Of a stretch of DNA of 37,503 nucleotides, positions 460 to 33,311 are shown piece after piece. The stretch comes from a virus. The notes beneath the pieces were generated by a model, which did not search any database, was not told the origin of the DNA, and saw only the letters and a list, made by a program, of their open reading frames with translations. Each line of letters begins with the position of its first letter. Position 1 is the stretch's first letter. A program made the position numbers and the translations under genes. The DNA lies in the IMG/VR virus record IMGVR_UViG_3300037245_001110, positions 1-37,503 of that record, one strand, 5' to 3'.

Positions 460-801
460 CTATCTATTTAAACGAACAGCACCAGATATCAATTTTACCC
501 GTGTAAATTTCACGGGTGACACTATTGGAGGCTCAAGATTAGCGATACCATTTAGCACAACGCCTGTCAGGTTATACTGAGCAAGCAAGTCAATCTCTGT
601 AGTACTGCCCTTCGATATTCCTTTGAGAATTTCAAATTCAACTCCATCACTCCTTAGCTGCACAGTGTCGAAATTGCCCTCATACTCTTCTGTGTTGCCA
701 TTTTCGATATAGAAATGCTCGTTAGACATTGCCATTCTGTTTTGTATCTCTGCCAGGCCGCGCTCTCTCGCGATCAGTACATTAGGTAGACTTGTTGCCA
801 T
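460..801 (-). CDS. Hypothetical small virion-region protein, 113 aa
   Basis: A 113-residue product without signal peptide or membrane segment. The N-terminal third (about 1-45) contains NVLIARERGLAEIQNRMAMS, probably helical; the rest is beta-prone with alternating hydrophobic residues. It lies between two other short late genes with 17- and 2-base gaps and is translated in the same direction, so it is part of the late polycistronic message. No family recognised. Position between the portal/connector genes and the tail-spike block suggests a virion or tail accessory protein, by inference only. Confidence 0.75.
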   Translation of the reverse strand: MATSLPNVLIARERGLAEIQNRMAMSNEHFYIENGNTEEYEGNFDTVQLRSDGVEFEILKGISKGSTTEIDLLAQYNLTGVVLNGIANLEPPIVSPVKFTRVKLISGAVRLNR

Positions 802-3064: not shown

Positions 3065-3643
3065 CTATGCCTCAACTTCAGCCTTTAACGACTCAACATC
3101 TTCAGGAGTTAACTCTCTTGCAATTTCAATTAATTCACCAATTCTTTTTTGAGTGATTATCGACCCATCGACTTCAGAACCCTTATTCTCGTTAATGATA
3201 GCAGTCTTTGATTTGTCAGCTTCAATGTCATAAACAAAGCTAAGGACGCATGTTTTCTCCATTACCGTAAGCTCCGTCTCATCCTTCGGAGTTGTTGCTC
3301 GTGGAAGCGAGTTGAAATGATCTTCAGCTAACGCCCCTGACTCAACTGCCAATAAAGCATCTTCATCAGTAATTGTTTCGCTATTATAATGCCTAGCCCC
3401 CTTTGTAGAATAGAGATTTCCATTCCAATTTGGAATGCATGTTCTTTTGCTTGCTTTAACTTTTTCCATGCCAGTTTCTTTTATTTCGTTATAATATTTT
3501 AGATGACACTTTTCACACATTCCAGCACGCTCACCGTGTAGGTATAGCATACTGTAAATCTTGAGCAGTTCTGGCATCAGCTCGCTAGAACCTTTTATTT
3601 CGTCAAAATTGTGTTTTAGTAAATGCCCAACTCTATCCTGCAT
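3065..3643 (-). CDS. Hypothetical structural-region protein with CxxC motif, 192 aa
   Basis: Begins MQDRVGHLLKHNFDEIKG and carries a CEKCHLKYYNEIK motif near residues 43-55, which could bind a metal but has only one clear CxxC pair, with another Cys (RTC) about 25 residues later. The C-terminus is acidic and helical (ELTPEDVESLKAEVEA). Its start overlaps the stop of the upstream structural gene by one base. It sits between a possible tail-tube gene and the portal gene. I do not recognise the family; an assembly or head-completion role is only suggested by position. Confidence 0.72.
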   Translation of the reverse strand: MQDRVGHLLKHNFDEIKGSSELMPELLKIYSMLYLHGERAGMCEKCHLKYYNEIKETGMEKVKASKRTCIPNWNGNLYSTKGARHYNSETITDEDALLAVESGALAEDHFNSLPRATTPKDETELTVMEKTCVLSFVYDIEADKSKTAIINENKGSEVDGSIITQKRIGELIEIARELTPEDVESLKAEVEA

Positions 3644-4814: not shown

Positions 4815-5912
4815 TCAATAAGCTACAGTCATCATATACTCTTCGAGCAACTTAGCATCTTCGTCGAAACCAAACTCGTAATATACTTTTCTGTCCTTCT
4901 TGTCGTACCACACGTCAATTGTCGACATGTCATTTTCGTTCAGCGTTCCAATTGGAATATTTTCCTTCACGGTCAACACGACTCGATTCGGCAAATAGTA
5001 TGCGTTGTCGGTAGTGTTGCTCGTGAAGTCTGCTTGAAGATCTCTATCCCAAACGTTCTCCATGTTGATTATCTTCTTACCATTCCAGTCGAGGAATGGA
5101 AATCCTTCAACAGTATGTTCGATAGTGAAGTTTAGTGAGTTTGTTTTAAGAAACTGTCTGTAATTCTCCCAGATACCTCTGCTCACATAGAATTGCGCGT
5201 CTGGATCTTCTCTCAATCGAGAATCAGCCTTAGACCATATATCTTCGAATATGGCATCAGCTCTTCCAGATGCTAGTGTCGTTTGAGCGCTTATTGAAGT
5301 TTCTGCGTTTTCGGAAATCTCAACACGCCCAACACTTCCAACAGGAACAGGTACTGTAGTACTTGCTGCTGTGAATATCTGATCCCAAAGACCGTCTATG
5401 TAATCATAGAATTTCACATTTGCCGCACTCTTTAGGCCAGCAACGCCAGCAGTAGCAGCAGCTATATTCTTGTCACCAAGCCACGCAGCGCGCCAGATCG
5501 TGGCCATCATTGCTTCCTCAAGTCTCATTATAATAAAGGTATCTTCATCACTACCAGTAATGTCAAATCTTTCCTTATATGCCTGAATCTTACTGTAGTA
5601 CGCCTTAAACAAAGCATCTACATCCTTCTGACATATAGACAAGCGATCTTCGATGCCCTCTGGATTCCAAAATTTTTCAGAGGTGCTCAATTCAGCACCT
5701 GAATTTTGTGGATCACAATTGGCAGTTCCCTTGAGTCCCACTTTGCCCATTCGACCAGCGAACACTATTTGATCCTTCATCTTAATTCCAGTACTAACGC
5801 CGTGCAATGCCGCAAGCTCTGGTCTCATGAATGTTTGCTCGATGATAAATCCAGCGAAATCACGAATCTCCTCTGGATTCATTGTGATGTTGTCTACATT
5901 AAATAATGCCAT
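4815..5912 (-). CDS. Major capsid protein, 365 aa
   Basis: Forms the icosahedral shell. Size (365 aa), position directly after the protease-scaffold gene and before a strong terminator, and composition fit an HK97-fold major capsid protein. Features: an N-terminal helix with NPEEIRDFAGFIIEQTFMRP; a central helix-rich block with LEEAMMATIWRAAWLGDKN (about 130-150), which resembles the spine helix; and an A-domain-like segment with VSRGIWENYRQFLKTN and LPNRVVLTVKENIPIGTL. The start has an A/T-rich leader of the Bacteroidota kind. The C-terminus is complete (YMMTVAY). No long N-terminal delta domain is present, consistent with a separate scaffold in the upstream gene. Confidence 0.8.
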   Translation of the reverse strand: MALFNVDNITMNPEEIRDFAGFIIEQTFMRPELAALHGVSTGIKMKDQIVFAGRMGKVGLKGTANCDPQNSGAELSTSEKFWNPEGIEDRLSICQKDVDALFKAYYSKIQAYKERFDITGSDEDTFIIMRLEEAMMATIWRAAWLGDKNIAAATAGVAGLKSAANVKFYDYIDGLWDQIFTAASTTVPVPVGSVGRVEISENAETSISAQTTLASGRADAIFEDIWSKADSRLREDPDAQFYVSRGIWENYRQFLKTNSLNFTIEHTVEGFPFLDWNGKKIINMENVWDRDLQADFTSNTTDNAYYLPNRVVLTVKENIPIGTLNENDMSTIDVWYDKKDRKVYYEFGFDEDAKLLEEYMMTVAY

Positions 5913-10311: not shown

Positions 10312-11855
10312 TATTTAGGAATGTTAATGAGTTCCAACTTGGTTGCCTGTGTTGACTTAACAGGATTAAAGCCAGCTATTTTATTTATAAAGAAATTCCC
10401 GTTAAGCTCAGGAATAAAATAGAGCTTGAAATATTCTAAATTGTATATCTCGTTCAGTGTCAACCATTTCGAGAACTCATAAAACTTTGGGTACTCAAGA
10501 ATGTTTTCAATCGTCTGATATTCAGATGCGAGCTCGTAAATCCTAGCTTTCTGCAATATCTTTGCAGCAGCAGTATTGAGTGTTACGTCCTCACTTCTTA
10601 TATTTGTTGTTCTGAATCCTTCTGAGATAAAGAATGTAAAATCCTTCATTGTTTCACTCGGTGACATATTTGTGATAGTATCGCCTGCGTCAATTACCTG
10701 AGAAGGGATGTAGTGCTTGATATCAAATAATGACTCGCTCGGTGTGCCTACGTCGATGTTCCTATTCTTGCATTCGATGTATTTCGAGTTGACAGTGCTT
10801 GCGCCACCTTCGTAGATGCTTGAAAATTTAATATAATTATTTTGCTTCCAATTTTTTATGCTCGGTGAGTAGCTCGGTACTCCGTCCCATCGACCAGAGA
10901 ATGTCTCAACCTCCGCACTGGTGATGTCGTCGAATCTTCTTATCTTATATTTCGACGAGCCGTCATCAGTCTTACTCTCATCGATTAGGCAATTGAAGTA
11001 TTTGAAAAAGACATTAACAAAATCATACAACGTCTTATCTTCGTATTGCGCGAAGATGTCCTCATCTGGCAAGAACGGAACATCGCTTCTAAATTCAAAA
11101 TAGAAACCTGAACCAGTATGCACTAGCATGATGTTCTTCATTGGAGTGTACATCGCCTTGACAATCGCATCTTCAAAGATGTTATAAGGCAAACCTGCAT
11201 CACCGACAGAGATGTCGACACCAAGATAGTCTTGTATATATTCAAAGACATCATTGATGTATATACACCAATGTCCGCCATTGCCTGCGTTGCCCGTGTT
11301 GTAGTATTGTAGAAATATAGTTGTCAAATCTTCAGTGCCAGGGAAGTCGAGCATGTTAGACAAGTAGTAAGGCAGAATCAGTCCCTCGGTTGGGTTCGTG
11401 TAGTTGTTCAGGAAGCTTGAAAATGAGCCGATAAACGGAGCTGATATACTCGGAACTCCTTTATTATTCTGAAGCCACAGCAGGAAGCTTTGCTGAAATG
11501 CAATCCAATCGAAATTTTTAAGCGTCTCCCAGATGCTGGCCTTGTCAGCTGCGAACATGCTTATTCTGTTAGATACTCCATTTATCTTAGCATACCCATT
11601 TCGAATAACATCAAGCTCCCCTACCCAGTAGTCGCACGTGAGTTGACTGTAGGGAATTTGAGAGATGGATTGCACATCACCAGCGAAACCAGTTATTAAC
11701 TTATTCCTAGGAGTTAAGGGAATGGTGAATGAATTAGACACAGGGACATAGCGAGATTCTGGACGCTTTATATTGTACTTTTGAAAGTCAATTCCTATAG
11801 CTGTCTTCTTGTCTATGTCGACAAGCTCACCATTTATCTTTAAAATCTGTTCCAT
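10311..11855 (-). CDS. Tail/baseplate protein, 514 aa
   Basis: A 514-residue, mostly beta protein rich in aromatic residues, beginning MEQILKINGELVDIDKKTAI and containing FTIPLTPRNKLITGFAGDVQ near residues 43-62. An N-terminal beta sandwich with this 'IPLTPRN' segment followed by a large mixed region fits proteins of Bacteroidota siphoviruses that sit next to the tape measure and build the tail tip. The start is one base past the stop of the gene before it, so the genes are tightly coupled. A distal-tail or tail-hub role is inferred from size and position. Confidence 0.65.
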   Translation of the reverse strand: MEQILKINGELVDIDKKTAIGIDFQKYNIKRPESRYVPVSNSFTIPLTPRNKLITGFAGDVQSISQIPYSQLTCDYWVGELDVIRNGYAKINGVSNRISMFAADKASIWETLKNFDWIAFQQSFLLWLQNNKGVPSISAPFIGSFSSFLNNYTNPTEGLILPYYLSNMLDFPGTEDLTTIFLQYYNTGNAGNGGHWCIYINDVFEYIQDYLGVDISVGDAGLPYNIFEDAIVKAMYTPMKNIMLVHTGSGFYFEFRSDVPFLPDEDIFAQYEDKTLYDFVNVFFKYFNCLIDESKTDDGSSKYKIRRFDDITSAEVETFSGRWDGVPSYSPSIKNWKQNNYIKFSSIYEGGASTVNSKYIECKNRNIDVGTPSESLFDIKHYIPSQVIDAGDTITNMSPSETMKDFTFFISEGFRTTNIRSEDVTLNTAAAKILQKARIYELASEYQTIENILEYPKFYEFSKWLTLNEIYNLEYFKLYFIPELNGNFFINKIAGFNPVKSTQATKLELINIPK

Positions 11856-12404
11856 CTACGTCGTCACAGTATAATGCTTCGGTAATTCTAATTCGATACT
11901 TATATTTGAAACAGCCTTTTCGTTGTCAACTATTTCAGAGTCTCCATTGATAGTTACGAGCACCCAGTCTTCTGTTTTGTCAGTAGATCCTCCGACACGC
12001 AAGTAGACTCTCGGAGAGAGATATATATCTGACAAGACCTCCTTCTCCGCCTTAGAAACCAATGTGCTTTGAAGCGACATTAACTTCTTCGTGTCGTATC
12101 CAATATTTCGTTTATCACTTTGATTATCTCTTATGTTGAGCACGTTCTTATTGTATGACCCTATGAGTCTAGGATTATAGCGAGTCTTCCAAAGCTCGTT
12201 GAACATGTGAAATCTATAGCGTCCATATTGGTCAAGAAATTTAATATACATACTCTCAAGCACGCCGATTGAATTGCATGACCCCTTCGCAATCTTCGAC
12301 TTCACATTTGCCGTTGCTATCAATGTCGCTCCATCGTACAGGTTTATTGTTTCATTTGCCTGCGATGGTATCAGCTTATATCTATAATATCCGATGCTAC
12401 TCAT
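11856..12404 (-). CDS. Tail-region hypothetical protein, 182 aa
   Basis: A 182-residue protein whose start overlaps the end of the preceding gene by 8 bases. It opens with SSIGYYRYKLIPSQANETIN and has a Tyr/Phe/Arg-rich middle (FLDQYGRYRFHMFNELW) then a beta-rich C-terminus. It lies between a fibre-like gene and the baseplate gene. A role in the tail tip is likely from context, but no domain is recognised. Confidence 0.7.
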   Translation of the reverse strand: MSSIGYYRYKLIPSQANETINLYDGATLIATANVKSKIAKGSCNSIGVLESMYIKFLDQYGRYRFHMFNELWKTRYNPRLIGSYNKNVLNIRDNQSDKRNIGYDTKKLMSLQSTLVSKAEKEVLSDIYLSPRVYLRVGGSTDKTEDWVLVTINGDSEIVDNEKAVSNISIELELPKHYTVTT

Positions 12405-15081: not shown

Positions 15082-15645
15082 TTAATGCCCCTTAGGCATC
15101 CTGCTCTTAATTATATCATTCATAGCATCCTGATAGTCAGACACTTGCTTGCGGGCGTATAGCTCATTGAAGCAGTGATTGTAAGGCAGTGATCTTACAG
15201 CTTCATTTTTAGTCACGTCATTGCCAGTTAATTGCCTTATCTGCATATACACACCCAATGGGGCGAATCGATCCAATCCCGCACGCAGCTCATCAGGTGT
15301 TGGCTCGTGCTTAAGTGCCTCACTTTCTATATGATTGATACCCTCGATAGCATCTATCATGTAGCTAGTTGCTCGACAGAAGTCATCTATTTGCATTGCG
15401 AGCATTTGCAACCTGCTTGCGCTACAGCAAAGAATTGCATATTCAATTTTCTGCTCAAGCGTCAATCCTGATTGCAGGTCATGTTGCAGATCCTTTATCA
15501 AGCCAAATGGTTTGCACACAAAGTCACCCATCTGAAGAGTGTCTTCAGGATGAGTAAATATGTGCGCATATTTGATAGCAAAATTGTACTTACTTTTATC
15601 TATCAGTTCTAGATAGTCACTTGTTGATATTAGATCTAATTTCAA
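15082..15645 (-). CDS. Tail-block hypothetical helical protein, 187 aa
   Basis: A 187-residue, mostly helical protein with several Cys and Met residues (AILCCSASRLQMLAMQIDDF). Its start codon overlaps the stop of the Ala/Ser-repeat gene by 4 bases (ATGA arrangement), so the two are probably translationally coupled. In many siphoviruses small helical proteins ahead of the tape measure act as tail assembly chaperones; that role is possible here but no frameshift site or motif supports it. Confidence 0.68.
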   Translation of the reverse strand: MKLDLISTSDYLELIDKSKYNFAIKYAHIFTHPEDTLQMGDFVCKPFGLIKDLQHDLQSGLTLEQKIEYAILCCSASRLQMLAMQIDDFCRATSYMIDAIEGINHIESEALKHEPTPDELRAGLDRFAPLGVYMQIRQLTGNDVTKNEAVRSLPYNHCFNELYARKQVSDYQDAMNDIIKSRMPKGH

Positions 15646-16517
15646 TTGTACTTTGGTTTATTGTCTAAAAATACATTAAAGTCTTTAGTTTTGAAAAATT
15701 CTAGAAGTTTGGATACTTGAGCTGACCTTGCTGACTTTGCTGCTGACTCTGCTGACTCTGCTGCTGACTCTGCTGCTGACCATCTTGCTGACCATACTGC
15801 TAACCTTGCTGACTTTGCTGCTGACTCTGCTGCTGACTCTGCTGCTGACCATACTGCTAACCTTGCTGACTTTGCTGCTGACTCTACTGCTGACCTTGTT
15901 GACTTTGCTGACCATCTTGCTGACTTTGCTGCTGACTCTGCTGACTTTGCTGCTGACTCTGCTGCTGACTCTGCTGCTGACCATACTGTTGACCTTGCTG
16001 ACTTCGCTGCTGACTCTGCTGCTGACTTTGCTGCTGACTCTGCTGCTGACTTTGCTGACCATCCTGCTGACTCTGCTGCTGACTTTGCTGACCATCTTGC
16101 TGACTTTGCTGCTGACTCTGCTGCTGACCTTGCTGCTGACTCTGCTGCTGACCTTGCTGACCTTGCTGACCATGCTGACTCTATTGCTGCTGACCTTGCT
16201 GCTGACAAATCTTCTTGAGAACTATCTCCGTTCGCATACCGCTCGGCCACGTCGGTAGCGCTCTTACTTCTTTGATCTATATTATCATGCAACTTAAAAG
16301 ACTCCCTTGCACACCAGACAGCGAATAGTCTTAGGCTTCTGTCACACATAAATTGCCTTCTACATAGCAGCCATATCACATCCTCTTTAGACTCGACTTT
16401 ATTGGCAAAAGCCTCGATAAACTCACTCGGGGTAAGATCCAAGTCCTCTGTGAATCCAATATACGAAGGATCGTAACATGGATCTAGCGCTCTAATCATG
16501 CTTGATGTTATTTTCAT
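15642..16517 (-). CDS. Ala/Ser tandem-repeat protein, 291 aa
   Basis: Residues 1-104 form a conserved-looking domain with ALDPCYDPSYIGF, LFAVWCARESFKL and DVAERYANGDSSQEDLSAAR. Then about 165 residues consist of SAAE, SAAK and SARW units, an almost pure Ala/Ser helix, followed by a non-repetitive 23-residue tail. The N-terminal motifs and Ala-rich extension resemble a family of phage and bacterial proteins with degenerate AAWAAAR-like repeats, some annotated as putative immunity proteins; the function is unknown. It is the first gene behind the promoter at 16545-16575 and begins the tail operon. Codons TCA GCA recur almost unchanged, which points to recent repeat expansion. Confidence 0.75.
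   Translation of the reverse strand: MKITSSMIRALDPCYDPSYIGFTEDLDLTPSEFIEAFANKVESKEDVIWLLCRRQFMCDRSLRLFAVWCARESFKLHDNIDQRSKSATDVAERYANGDSSQEDLSAARSAAIESAWSARSARSAAESAARSAAESAAKSARWSAKSAAESAGWSAKSAAESAAKSAAESAAKSARSTVWSAAESAAESAAKSAESAAKSARWSAKSTRSAVESAAKSARLAVWSAAESAAESAAKSARLAVWSARWSAAESAAESAESAAKSARSAQVSKLLEFFKTKDFNVFLDNKPKYN
15716..16206 (-). repeat. Tandem 9/12-base coding repeat
   Basis: About 490 bases made of TCAGCAGCAGAG, TCAGCAGCAAAG and TCAGCAAGA units on the minus strand (read as TGCTGACTCTGC on the plus strand). Units are 12 or 9 bases, so the frame is always kept. Because units lack stop codons in several frames, long spurious reading frames appear on both strands here. Unit identity is very high, consistent with slippage or unequal recombination. 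Confidence 0.9.
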
Positions 16518-18202: not shown

Positions 18203-18778
18203 TCACTTACCTACAATTTGATTCATCCAACTATTATGAAAATCATATATCTCTTTTGATTCTGTAATTACAAAATTTTCTATTCTTGCATTTTGGGAAT
18301 AGTTTGCACTCGATTCTATCGAGAAAAACATGTCCTTTGTCCTAAATGTAGAAACCTTAGCGTGCAACTTGTAGTGCACTTTAAGATCTATCTTTCCATC
18401 AATTGCCAATTCTGCAACCTGAGCATATAAATGAAATTTTCGCGTCTTCAATGACTGGTCAATAAGTAGACACATGTCAATATTGCAATCTTTTATCAAT
18501 TCAATGTAATCCTGATTAATCGACCATGTCGTCATACTAATGTGTTCAGGATCATACTTTTCAATCATATATTTTAACAGTTCGATACTCCCGAAATTGT
18601 CAGAGGAAATAAGATGCAAACATTCATCCTTTCCCATATCTGGCATAACTTCTTTCAATTCGCTATACCTATCTGCGAGCACTGCCTTTTTTTTTATGCT
18701 GGTCTTTATCGACTTGCCTTTAATCTTCTCAGTTGAATTGAGATTAGTGTCTCCAAATAAATGCCCGTATTCGCTCAT
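18203..18778 (-). CDS. Phospholipase D-like (single HKD) protein, 191 aa
   Basis: The C-terminal half contains KLHAKVSTF with His139 and Lys141, then IESSANYSQNARIENFVI, matching the HxK...(G/S)SxN core of PLD-superfamily phosphodiesterases; the usual Asp after HxK(x4) is not obvious. One HKD half per chain means activity, if any, would need a dimer, as in PLD-type nucleases such as Nuc or BfiI. The N-terminus is basic (KIKGKSIKTSIKKKAVLADR). The gene precedes terminase by one base and is the first gene of that operon, so a role in DNA packaging or end processing is plausible; anti-host nuclease is an alternative. Confidence 0.7.
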   Translation of the reverse strand: MSEYGHLFGDTNLNSTEKIKGKSIKTSIKKKAVLADRYSELKEVMPDMGKDECLHLISSDNFGSIELLKYMIEKYDPEHISMTTWSINQDYIELIKDCNIDMCLLIDQSLKTRKFHLYAQVAELAIDGKIDLKVHYKLHAKVSTFRTKDMFFSIESSANYSQNARIENFVITESKEIYDFHNSWMNQIVGK

Positions 18779-18794
18779 GTCTTTTTATTTGTAT

Positions 18795-18825
18795 GCAATA
18801 TACGAAATCTAAAGGGAGTAATCAA
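18795..18825 (-). promoter_or_regulatory. Promoter for the PLD-terminase operon
   Basis: On the minus strand TTG (18825-18823), 20-base spacer, TATATTGC (18802-18795), the same -7 box as the tail-operon promoter. The start codon at 18778 is about 17 bases downstream of the -7 box. It lacks TTGCATAATTAAG, although a related TATGCATAATTATG lies a few bases upstream. Confidence 0.55.
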
Positions 18826-18892
18826 TTATTTATGCATAATTATGATAAAAAGAACTCTAACAACAATCACATGACACGTACACATTATTAGG

Positions 18893-19165
18893 CAACACTT
18901 TATTATGAAAAACAACACTTTATTTTTACCGACAACACTTTATTATAATAAGTGTTGCGGTCTAATTAGTTGCACAGTAAGAGTTTATGTATTAACGCAA
19001 CACTTTACTGTATTTTTCCTCGTAGCGTATAAGTGTTAAGAACTTTTCAAGTTATATTATAATACTAATAAGGCTGTTGGTGTCGATAAAGTGTTGCGGT
19101 CTAATCAACTGAGTGCTAGCGTGATTACTAAAAAAGGGCGCAACACTTATATAAATAAAGTGTTG
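18893..19165. repeat. Iteron-like array in a 460-base gene-free region
   Basis: The gap from 18779 to 19240 has no gene. It holds nine copies of CAACACTTTATT or close variants: forward at 18893, 18913, 18933, 18998 and 19141, and inverted at 18947, 19030, 19085 and 19154. Copies 18933/18947 and 19141/19154 form two dyads, each 25 bases long. A 17-base perfect direct repeat (AAGTGTTGCGGTCTAAT) occurs at 18950 and 19089. The region sits where leftward late genes and rightward small genes diverge. An origin of replication with iterons, or an operator array for a phage repressor, are the two natural readings; I cannot decide between them. Confidence 0.85.
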
Positions 19166-19189
19166 CGTGTGCTTTTTAGGGGTGAAAAT

Positions 19190-19220
19190 TTGCATAATTA
19201 AGTAAGTTTTTGTATGTTTG
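19190..19220 (+). promoter_or_regulatory. Rightward promoter (extended phage motif)
   Basis: TTG at 19190-19192 begins TTGCATAATTAAG, and TATGTTTG lies at 19213-19220 after exactly 20 bases. The ATG of the first rightward gene is at 19241. The 19141-19165 dyad ends 24 bases upstream of the TTG, a position where a bound protein could repress or activate. Confidence 0.78.
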
Positions 19221-19240
19221 TGAGGAATTAAGGAAAAGAC

Positions 19241-19369
19241 ATGAGCAAGAAACTAACTAAAGACGAACTCAAGAAGAAACTCAAGTACCACAAATCGAGA
19301 GTGAAGTATTACAAAAGTAAACTCATTCAGATCGAAGATAGTGAAAGGAAGATTGGATTTAAATACTAA
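19241..19369 (+). CDS. Small basic helical protein, 42 aa
   Basis: A 42-residue product with 13 Lys and 2 Arg residues, predicted to be one long helix (KLTKDELKKKLKYHKSRVKY). It begins 20 bases after a good -7 box and ends 3 bases before the next gene, so it is the first gene of the rightward transcript. Such charge patterns fit nucleic-acid binding or a small coiled coil. Because it lies next to the iteron array it could act on it, but that is speculation. Confidence 0.65.
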   Translation: MSKKLTKDELKKKLKYHKSRVKYYKSKLIQIEDSERKIGFKY

Positions 19370-19372
19370 TAA

Positions 19373-19705
19373 ATGAAAAAACAATACACCCAAAACGGAA
19401 CAATACTCAAGGAAGAATCTCTTTCCATTGCGATTAATGGCAAAACAAAAGTCATATCGTACGTTAATGTCGACGACTGCCATGTATGTACATCTCATAA
19501 AGAAAACTCACAGGGCTTCATTATAGTTAACTTTAGTGGAGTTTCTAAGACAGCAGCTCGCGCAGTGTATGAAAGTCAAATTAAAGAGATATCTGCTGGC
19601 TATCGATTAAGAAGGATGTGCAAAGAAAAGGATTGCATCAATCCTAAGCACATGGAAGTAGTGACCGATAGTAGAGGGAATAGTCTTATTAGTAGGAAGT
19701 GGTGA
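19373..19705 (+). CDS. HNH-family protein lacking the usual histidines, 110 aa
   Basis: The C-terminal half follows the HNH_3-type endonuclease pattern: CHVCTSHKENSQGF at about 38-51, a strand-helix with KTAARAVYESQIKEISAGYR, then CKEKDCINPKHMEVVTDSRGN at about 85-105, matching the family's 'C...CxNPxHL...T...N' block. Two histidines normally present, the one in 'AHR' (here AAR) and the one before the first Cys of the block (here RRMC), are replaced. The protein therefore probably binds DNA without cutting it, or uses other residues. Related proteins in phages are often homing-type nucleases or regulators. It lies directly next to the iteron array. Confidence 0.7.
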   Translation: MKKQYTQNGTILKEESLSIAINGKTKVISYVNVDDCHVCTSHKENSQGFIIVNFSGVSKTAARAVYESQIKEISAGYRLRRMCKEKDCINPKHMEVVTDSRGNSLISRKW

Positions 19706-25373: not shown

Positions 25374-25405
25374 CAAATATACAACCCTCTGCTTAATTAT
25401 GCAAA
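25374..25405 (-). promoter_or_regulatory. Cassette 1 promoter
   Basis: TTTGCATAATTAAG from 25405, spacer of exactly 20 after TTG, and TATATTTG at 25381-25374, a perfect Bacteroidota -7 box. Transcription should start near 25367, giving a leader of about 28 bases. Confidence 0.85.
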
Positions 25406-25415
25406 TAAAACACAT

Positions 25416-25451
25416 AAAAAAAGCAAAATAATTTCACTTTATTTTGCTTTT
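25416..25451 (-). terminator. Terminator of the primase gene (in repeat copy 1)
   Basis: AAAAGCAAAATAA pairs perfectly with TTATTTTGCTTTT over a 7-base loop, and the minus strand continues with three more T (seven in all), the normal form of an intrinsic terminator. It starts 30 bases after the stop codon of the primase-helicase gene. Confidence 0.85.
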
Positions 25452-25480
25452 CTTTGAGTGTTAGTTAGTTACGCAAATAT

Positions 25481-27877
25481 TTAACGATAATCCTCAAAAA
25501 GCGTTGAATTAACTTTCTCTTCAGACTTCTTGACCGAGCTACTATCTACACTCAACCACTTAACACCCTGTGTATTACCCTCATTGTATTCAGAACCAAT
25601 AAACTTCGCATAAGCTTGACACCATCCGTTGAATCTTCGCTGTGAAATCTTAAATTTTCCCGTCGCATAATCTGGATACTCTTCAGTGAAAGACGTCATT
25701 AACTTACTTCTTGTATGTCTTGTGTTTGATGCTATAGCAACATCTTTCGCAATAACCCACTCATAAAATTCTGAGCAGGTTTCTTTAATAAATTTGCGTG
25801 CTGCTAAATTCTTGAAGCTCGAAGCTATTAGACCGTCTTTTAAGTAGAATTGCAAGCATGATATCATGAACGAATAGAACCTCATCCACTCCCTTGAATC
25901 CCATGACGTAAAGAATTCTCCATCATACTCATCGTAAGGCGAGTGCTTGTCTGAGAAGAAGTCTGAGAACTCGAGCTCATGCTTTCGCCTGTCAAATGAT
26001 CCACCAATTCCGCCGATTGTGTAGTTTGTTGTAATTACAATTTTCGGTGCTAATTCAAACGGAATAAATACTGCATCCTTATTTTTTTTCTCAATCTCTA
26101 ATCCTTCGGTGACAACTGGGAATAGATTTTCAAAATCGAAATTTCTTTTCACGTCATCAAATTGCAATATCTGAGTATCCAAAGAAACTTTTTGAAAGCA
26201 GAACGTTTTCTCCAACGAGAATCTCTTGCCGTCCTCAATCGAAACTCTTCTCAAATGACCAAGAGCTTTGCAAAATAACCCCTTGCCGCTGCCCCCGTTC
26301 GGCTTATCTGATATAGTTTCATCGTTAAGTATGACAGCCTTGTTGTTCTTCGAGCTCTTGTGCGAGTGCAGCAAGAATCCTATGGTTGATCTAATAGAAT
26401 CGTACCTGCTACTGTCGTCTCCTGACAGCTTCATGATAAAGTCTTCGTATACTGACTTCTTTTTGTCAGAATCGATATGATCGTGCTGTATGATCTGATT
26501 CTCCCAGATAAAACCCTCAAGATCAATGTAATCTATTTTTTTTATGTCATTGGATGTTACTTTTATAGCATGATTTTTGAAATATAAAAATGCATCACTC
26601 TTTGAATCTCTCTTAAATTTCACGTCCTTGCTGGAAATCATTGAGAGGAAGTCTTCTTTAAAGTACTTAGTACTTTCTGCCATAAAGTTAAATGGCTGCT
26701 TACCCATATCGGAAAGCCTGTCTCTCAGATAACTCAAGACATAGTCTCTTATCTTAGATGTGCTAACATTCTGAATAATGTTAGACTCCTTGATCTTTAT
26801 AAGAGTGTGATTGCCGATCACGCTTGGATAATACTTGCTATACCCTTCTTCTTCTAAGAATAACTTATAGTCATAGTGAGATAACTTCAACCCACCTCTT
26901 GATCCGTATTCCCAGAAAGTTTCTGTCGTTATGCTTTTTCTGACTTTTTGAATTTCTTTGTCGTCTGCACCTGTCTCATCTCTTATTTCTTCACGTGTTT
27001 TCCCATTTTTGATCCCCGTTGATATAGCATCTTTCTTTCGTGAATCTTCAAAACTCTTAGTTCCATGATCGCTTGCTTTCTTGTATGCAGATCGAACCGT
27101 ATTCTCGATTTCCGAGACTGGGAAACTGTCATTTGCAAAGCTTCTTAAAGAGCTTTCGCAAGTGGTCTGAGCTACACCGTAGGTGTTGAATGCCGCTGCG
27201 AGCTTAAAGAGATTGTCGTTTCGCTCTCCCTTAATCATTGTGTAATTCTTTGCAAACCAAGTATTTAATCTTTCGATTATTTCATACTCTGAAGTTAGCG
27301 GAATGGCTGCATTCATTGTCCCGATTTCCTCAATTTCCTCAACTGGCAACTCCTCCCACAACACCGAATCTTTGTTAATGTATATGTCCTCATCACAAGA
27401 CTCATAACACACTCGCGACACGTCACTCGTTGACTTGTCGAAGTGTTTTGAGGCATAGTATTTTTGCAGCGTTTCGAAGTATTTTTTGTGAAAATCTACC
27501 ATTGGAGGGATCTTCACAAGGACTTTCAGTCCATTTCCTGAGGGTGACAGGAACACGGAGAATGAATATGCGTCCTTCGTCAAGGTTGATCTATACTCAC
27601 TTAACTTATCCTCATCTTCAAACCCATCAAAATCGATACAGATTAATCCAGAATGCTCGATCAATCCCTTGATAGCTCTCTTCTTGAATGTACCTGAAAA
27701 GCAAATTGAAGGGAGTGACATCTTGCTTTTGTCTCTTATTTTTTTATCTTTTTCATTTCGTATTATCTCGATTAACTCCCTGGAGTGACACCGCTTAATC
27801 CTATCAAGAACAAAGTCGATGTCTCTATGAAATGCCTGCTCGGTCGTGGAAATGTCTTTAAAAATGGTTACTTGCAT
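25481..27877 (-). CDS. Primase-helicase (BT4734/VirE-like N-terminus, SF3-type ATPase), 798 aa
   Basis: Probably starts phage DNA replication. Residues about 45-170 resemble the BT4734/VirE N-terminal domain of Bacteroidota mobile elements (GLICIDFDGFED with metal-binding Asp residues, SPSGNGLKVLVKI, SDVSRVCYESCDEDIYIN). Residues about 205-280 look like a PriCT-type helical segment (RNDNLFKLAAAFNTYGV). The C-terminal part (about 480-700) is an SF3/DUF5906-like helicase: Walker A PNGGSGKGLF near 526, Walker B LQFDDVKR, and KIVITTNYTIGGIGG as sensor segment. The gene ends at the terminator in repeat copy 1. It begins after a 120-base gap with no clear promoter. Confidence 0.85.
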   Translation of the reverse strand: MQVTIFKDISTTEQAFHRDIDFVLDRIKRCHSRELIEIIRNEKDKKIRDKSKMSLPSICFSGTFKKRAIKGLIEHSGLICIDFDGFEDEDKLSEYRSTLTKDAYSFSVFLSPSGNGLKVLVKIPPMVDFHKKYFETLQKYYASKHFDKSTSDVSRVCYESCDEDIYINKDSVLWEELPVEEIEEIGTMNAAIPLTSEYEIIERLNTWFAKNYTMIKGERNDNLFKLAAAFNTYGVAQTTCESSLRSFANDSFPVSEIENTVRSAYKKASDHGTKSFEDSRKKDAISTGIKNGKTREEIRDETGADDKEIQKVRKSITTETFWEYGSRGGLKLSHYDYKLFLEEEGYSKYYPSVIGNHTLIKIKESNIIQNVSTSKIRDYVLSYLRDRLSDMGKQPFNFMAESTKYFKEDFLSMISSKDVKFKRDSKSDAFLYFKNHAIKVTSNDIKKIDYIDLEGFIWENQIIQHDHIDSDKKKSVYEDFIMKLSGDDSSRYDSIRSTIGFLLHSHKSSKNNKAVILNDETISDKPNGGSGKGLFCKALGHLRRVSIEDGKRFSLEKTFCFQKVSLDTQILQFDDVKRNFDFENLFPVVTEGLEIEKKNKDAVFIPFELAPKIVITTNYTIGGIGGSFDRRKHELEFSDFFSDKHSPYDEYDGEFFTSWDSREWMRFYSFMISCLQFYLKDGLIASSFKNLAARKFIKETCSEFYEWVIAKDVAIASNTRHTRSKLMTSFTEEYPDYATGKFKISQRRFNGWCQAYAKFIGSEYNEGNTQGVKWLSVDSSSVKKSEEKVNSTLFEDYR

Positions 27878-33220: not shown

Positions 33221-33252
33221 CAAATATACAACGTTCTGCTTAATTATGCAAA
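33221..33252 (-). promoter_or_regulatory. Cassette 2 promoter
   Basis: TTTGCATAATTAAG from 33252, an exact 20-base spacer after TTG, and TATATTTG at 33228-33221. Identical to the cassette 1 promoter apart from two spacer bases. Confidence 0.85.
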
Positions 33253-33262
33253 TAAAACACAT

Positions 33263-33298
33263 AAAAAAAGCAAAATAATTTCACTTTATTTTGCTTTT
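33263..33298 (-). terminator. Terminator of the lysis operon (in repeat copy 2)
   Basis: The same perfect 13-base stem, 7-base loop and seven-T tail as at 25416-25451. It lies 14 bases after the stop codon at 33312 and would end the whole late transcript. Confidence 0.85.
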
Positions 33299-33311
33299 CT
33301 TTGAGTGTTAG

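Follow-up and report, generated by a model that had tools for sequence, protein, structure and literature searches.

In this work, we have followed up a cluster of short repeats that spans 273 bp (positions 18893-19165) of a 37,503-bp virus contig, the whole of which we call the window. Judged from sequence comparisons, this cluster is very probably the site at which copying of the viral DNA starts. We put at roughly 85% the probability that it is an iteron-type replication origin whose predicted initiator is the phage's own primase-helicase (25481-27877, minus strand). The likely binder of the repeats is this enzyme, encoded 6.3 kb away, and not a neighbouring protein. The evidence comes from the array itself, from the same layout in two other genomes, from a family-wide linkage of such arrays to the primase-helicase gene, from a winged helix predicted in the enzyme, and from a suggestive co-variation between the iteron and this winged helix.

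The repeat array and the genes around it

The original prediction had described nine repeats, five forward and four inverted, together with two dyads of 25 bp and a direct repeat of 17 bp, and all of these features are confirmed by their coordinates and lie far beyond chance expectation. Exact copies of CAACACTT begin on the plus strand at 18893, 18913, 18933, 18998 and 19141, and occupy 18950-18957, 19089-19096 and 19158-19165 on the minus strand; together with a degenerate ninth copy, AACACTT (19031-19037, minus strand), these eight make a cluster of nearly identical short sites in non-coding DNA. In the rest of the record the exact 8-mer occurs once, at 5330. The first three copies are direct iterons CAACACTTTATT with an exact 20-bp spacing (18893-18940, plus strand), and the third of them opens dyad 1 (CAACACTT-9-AAGTGTTG, 18933-18957), which is followed by CGGTCTAAT. 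Dyad 2, at 19141-19165, has the same composition, and both measure 25 bp (8 + 9 A/T + 8). The 17-bp element AAGTGTTGCGGTCTAAT is present at 18950-18966 and at 19089-19105 (both plus strand), and its second copy contains the inverted iteron 19089-19096. This iteron is the right member of an opposed pair whose left member (18998-19005, plus strand) lies 65 bp from dyad 1; the two are 91 bp apart start to start, with a spacer of 83 bp (19006-19088) between them. When the interval 18780-19240 was shuffled 5000 times with its dinucleotides preserved, no 8-mer exceeded 4 copies, against the 8 observed, and in 40 shuffled records no window attained five copies of one 8-mer. The region had also been called A/T-rich apart from the repeats, which holds in a mild form: A/T pairs make up 68% of the array and 70% of the spacer, compared with 60% of the record. 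A nucleotide similarity search of the array region against known phages gave no match, and no DnaA boxes were found near the array. Clustered iterons mark centromeres too and the dyads are able to fold as hairpins; nevertheless, a partition or segregation site, or RNA hairpins or terminators, are extremely unlikely explanations of the array, as the proteins scanned include no ParA/ParB-type protein and the terminator, tRNA and Rfam searches returned no terminator-like site, no tRNA and no Rfam family.

As had been predicted, the array lies between divergent transcripts, its neighbours starting at 18778 (minus strand) and 19241 (plus strand). The leftward gene (18203-18778) codes for a phage endonuclease-like protein of 191 aa, whose homolog in the Flavobacterium contig L129 neighbours TerL, with about 11.5 kb separating it from the array of that contig. 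The rightward genes (19241-19705) code for a lysine-rich protein of 42 aa and an HNH-like protein of 110 aa. A Bacteroidota-type promoter for this cassette, TTTG-N20-TATGTTTG (19189-19220, plus strand), begins 24 bp past dyad 2 and is the only good one on the rightward side of the array. Promoters of the form TTTG-N18..21-TANNTTTG occur in several intergenic regions of the window, and its TerL shows 48% identity to that of Flavobacterium psychrophilum phages; such proteins and promoters together indicate a tailed phage of Bacteroidota.

Some other repeated sequences of the window deserve mention in their own right. An identical 13-bp inverted context, AAAAGACATGAGC, is found at the start of both flanking genes (18773-18785 and 19234-19246), perhaps as a shared translation start context. 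Two near-identical promoter regions of about 100 bp (GCAAAATAAAGTGAAATTATTTTGC, then TTTG-N20-TATATTTG), at 25374-25460 and 33221-33310, precede different leftward operons and represent a duplicated promoter with a candidate operator dyad. Finally, about 19 copies of CTGCTGACTC, placed at multiples of 3 bp, form a repetitive coding stretch (15740-16181) within the ORF 15642-16517 (minus strand), and the locus L066 terminates in similar repeats, CTGCTGAC (15113-15236).

Arrays in related genomes and their linkage to the primase-helicase gene

The original prediction had proposed to look for the same repeat in related phages, and the array layout was indeed found beside the primase-helicase gene in two other genomes, L027 and L129. 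Viral contigs were searched for CAACACTT repeated three times with a spacing of exactly 20 bp. Two contigs matched, one of which (L026) was rejected as a plain, unrelated 20-bp tandem repeat. The other, L027, is laid out as the window is: its triple (3242-3289) has the 20-bp spacing, the third copy is part of a dyad, CGGTYTAA follows, the next copy comes 66 bp on, and opposed copies flank a T-rich tract. The L027 array begins 28 bp upstream of a primase-helicase gene whose product is a full-length match, at 38% identity, to the 798-aa enzyme of the window; when the full contig was compared with 48 window proteins, this enzyme and a weak TerL match were all that the two had in common. L129, a Flavobacterium MAG contig, was recovered by primase homology alone, when viral contigs and bacterial genomes were searched with the primase-helicase family as bait and the repeats were ignored. 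It carries the window's iteron, the 66-bp interval and, like L027, the dyad followed by CGGTTTAA (the window counterpart is CGGTCTAA), all upstream of the primase gene. Two further baits were discarded: the 17-mer AAGTGTTGCGGTCTAAT matched once in viral contigs, within coding sequence of L028, which is unrelated, and the dyad pattern alone matched 7 contigs, each with one lone dyad and no array.

These two genomes bear directly on what the array might do for its neighbours. The original prediction had offered a second reading, a cooperative operator array acting on the leftward terminase promoter and the rightward promoter at once. A repressor or activator would then bind the repeats and govern the terminase operon and the rightward cassette through their divergent promoters. 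The position between divergent genes, the resemblance of the 25-bp dyads to dimer sites and the good promoter 24 bp past dyad 2 would all suit such an operator. However, in L027 and L129 the array sits between co-directional genes and not at a strand switch, 6-12 kb from the terminase, and TerL relatives examined near TerL have no repeat cluster of this kind; in the window itself, no repeat overlaps the rightward promoter, and no repressor-like HTH protein was recognised among the proteins of the flanking cassette. We consequently regard an operator at the strand switch as very improbable. The start of the terminase operon next to the array could likewise suggest that the terminase recognises the array as its packaging site (pac or cos), which is hardly credible given that the array tracks the primase-helicase and not TerL, the TerL homolog lying about 12 kb from the array in L129 and about 6.4 kb in L027. 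Because the homologs of both TerL and the flanking gene are some 12 kb away in L129, the array follows the primase-helicase and not the terminase or the strand switch.

The same linkage is seen across the family. As the relatives had been grouped by clustering at 80% identity, the counts given here are not fully independent. The criterion was that one 8-mer should recur exactly, at least 4 times, in the 600 bp that precede the gene. Several of the loci are contig fragments, and enough upstream sequence was available for 49 relatives. Such repeats were present in 18 of the 49, whereas control windows had them in 12 of 986 cases (Fisher 3e-18) and low-ORF control windows in 7 of 251 (7e-11); in the remaining 31 relatives the array may have diverged, moved elsewhere or be missing. 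The exact 8-mer was adopted because a 9-mer scoring with one mismatch separated less well from shuffles. A stricter detector, which required at least 4 exact copies in 400 bp and neighbouring opposed copies 70-120 bp apart, was run blind on 51 non-redundant relatives (813 kb) and reported 17 arrays, against a shuffle mean of 0.4. Fifteen of them lie directly upstream of the primase-helicase gene, and the other two are those of the window, where 18893-19165 alone was reported, and of MW202828.1. Opposed exact copies 77-119 bp apart are found in 12 of the 18 upstream arrays (4.9 by random placement, P 2e-4), and the spacers between them are mostly A/T-rich. The array is thus linked across relatives to a candidate initiator encoded by the replicon itself. 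The iterons, for their part, vary from one relative to another (ATGTGCCG in L048, ATGACGGT in L126, TGTGTACC, AATGTGTC, TATGTCGA, ACCGTCAT and others), so it is the arrangement that is conserved rather than one sequence. No array was found in L018-L022, whose primases are 31-34% identical.

The window phage is unusual in that its array stands apart from the primase gene, whereas the array abuts the gene in most array-bearing relatives: it is located at the strand switch that precedes the terminase operon, 6.3 kb past the gene's 3' end. MW202828.1 (Caudoviricetes sp., Manatee Spring) resembles it, with a 44%-identical primase-helicase and an array placed 10.9 kb upstream of the gene, with opposed copies 94 bp apart, but differs from it in the iteron sequence (TATGTCGA) and in the surroundings (groEL region). 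This genome also shows head-to-head AACGACAC/GTGTCGTT palindromes every few hundred bases in its rightward early region (10528-12157), which are probably operators or promoter elements. Clusters of ATTCCAAA with 11-bp spacing were noticed 8-9 kb from the primase gene in L087 (954-1162) and L125 (1369-1461), and may be additional origins of this family that have been displaced. The displaced arrays matter for another reading, according to which the primase-helicase binds the repeats to repress its own promoter and the array has no origin function. In most relatives that carry an array, it does lie just upstream of the gene, where the promoter must be. Nevertheless, a purely autoregulatory operator is disfavoured because the array persists away from the gene in the window phage; it keeps its anatomy both there and in MW202828.1, and opposed iterons around an A/T-rich spacer would fit an origin better than an operator. 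This explanation is therefore quite improbable, and we retain the iteron-type origin served by the primase-helicase, a reading in line with the original prediction, whose origin half receives strong support from the comparison with relatives.

The predicted initiator and its possible match to the iterons

Three proteins had been suggested as binders of the repeats. The primase-helicase has a homolog in both array-sharing genomes and stands, while the HNH-like and 42-residue proteins have no detectable homolog there and were set aside. The enzyme belongs to family phrog_28855, and among 38 aligned members Pfam recognises the BT4734-like_N domain (archaeo-eukaryotic primase type) in all and PriCT_1 in 31. 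The metal-binding aspartates D82, D84 and D147 are invariant in 51 relatives, in which GGxGK 528-532 (Walker A), FDD 573-575 (Walker B), N618 (motif C) and R631 (Arg finger) vary little or not at all. An AlphaFold model built with 37 sequences (pLDDT 86) closes with a winged helix (residues 702-778), and the fold recurs when the domain is modelled alone (pLDDT 89). A PDB sequence search with the family profile gave no credible match, and folds were compared for this reason. The closest solved structure to the modelled motor is the SaPI5 primase-helicase (Z 21), followed by D5/E5, ASFV PrimPol and NrS-1, and the modelled winged helix has generic fold matches (Z under 8), including the P4 origin-binding domain 1ka8 (Z 6.3). 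By motifs, Pfam assignments and predicted fold, the protein carries a primase domain and an SF3/D5-type motor, continued by the predicted C-terminal winged helix (residues 700-780, 25538-25780, minus strand; wing tip NEGNTQGVKW) that we propose as the reader of the iterons.

Does the iteron change together with this domain? Whole-protein similarity barely predicts iteron similarity: L129 and L027, which share the window's iteron, rank 46 and 47 of 50 by whole-protein similarity to the window, 45 other relatives being closer. Residues 726-775 (recognition helix and wing) are the one stretch where both clearly climb, to ranks 7 and 17. The wing tip GNTxG is found only in the three AAGTGTTG phages and in L052 (iteron AATGTGTTGC), and L081 (iteron AAGCGTTGC) has NTQG. 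A partial Mantel scan in 60-residue windows, with whole-protein similarity removed, peaked at 721-780 (partial r 0.33; max-statistic P 0.0007, corrected for scanning). Without the three AAGTGTTG phages the co-variation is weaker and the motor window 581-640 tops the ranking, and for this reason we consider the co-variation of iteron and winged helix suggestive rather than settled.

We propose that the C-terminal winged helix would read the CAACACTT/AAGTGTTG iterons. With SaPI Rep and P4 alpha as models, the primase-helicase probably forms rings that face in opposite directions at the iterons 18998 (plus strand) and 19089 (minus strand). The assembled rings would melt the A/T-rich spacer between these iterons, which is proposed as the unwinding region because relatives have opposed gaps of 77-119 bp; the SF3 motor would then unwind and the AEP domain prime in both directions, initiating replication. 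The dyads and the three copies spaced at 20 bp may serve in the loading or regulation of the initiator. The array fits an origin because opposed iterons surround an A/T-rich spacer and the replicon encodes an enzyme with the three needed parts. Cumulative GC skew, which had been put forward as a check, is uninformative and carries no origin signal in the window: it tracks gene strand, and the skew at four-fold sites shows no difference between the two sides of the array. For the family as a whole, we lean towards the view that phrog_28855 primase-helicases start replication at iteron origins of fixed anatomy, with the wing and the iteron co-diversified into mutually specific pairs and the origin module free to move.

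Relation to known origins and initiators

To our knowledge, few origins are known for Bacteroidota phages. A search of the open-access literature found none for these phages, nor any account of origins or iterons connected with this primase family. Since the same repeats and layout stand beside its gene in relatives, the enzyme and its predicted landing site can be paired across this virus group. A predicted origin, a probable initiator and a recognisable anatomy would permit origins to be located in uncultured phage genomes from sequence alone, and the family would offer a natural series of paired initiators and sites in which to study how the DNA specificity of winged helices changes, as well as a possible source of replicons for Bacteroidota vectors.

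The SaPI Rep and SCCmec Cch2 proteins recognise origin iterons via their C-terminal domain, and loading in the form of two hexamers has been proposed for them (PMC7581432). The SaPI5 enzyme, the closest solved structure (7ola/7om0), has in common with the window enzyme an iteron origin bound, here by prediction, through the C-terminal domain. The Cch2 iteron AAGTG lies within the window's AAGTGTTG, which is probably a coincidence. The SaPI and SCCmec origins, however, are directly downstream of the gene, while those of the phage family are mostly upstream and that of the window is displaced, and the proteins share 12-15% identity; the relation to SaPI Rep, as that to P4 alpha, rests on fold. 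NrS-1 phage PrimPol, with its AEP domain, D5-type C-terminal region and similar fold (6k9c, Z 15), belongs to another phage group.

In phage P4, the alpha protein combines a primase, an SF3-type helicase and a C-terminal winged-helix origin-binding domain, and short iterons are present at its origin (ori/crr). The window enzyme similarly unites three parts in one protein, with a predicted winged helix and iterons, but its primase is of the AEP (BT4734-like) type by Pfam, its iteron differs and there is no match to P4 alpha at the sequence level. In iteron plasmid origins of the RepA/RepE type, clusters of direct iterons lie beside an A/T-rich region, with the initiator gene adjacent. Unlike in these plasmids, the initiator proposed for the window phage has its own helicase and primase, and its iterons are placed in both orientations around the spacer.
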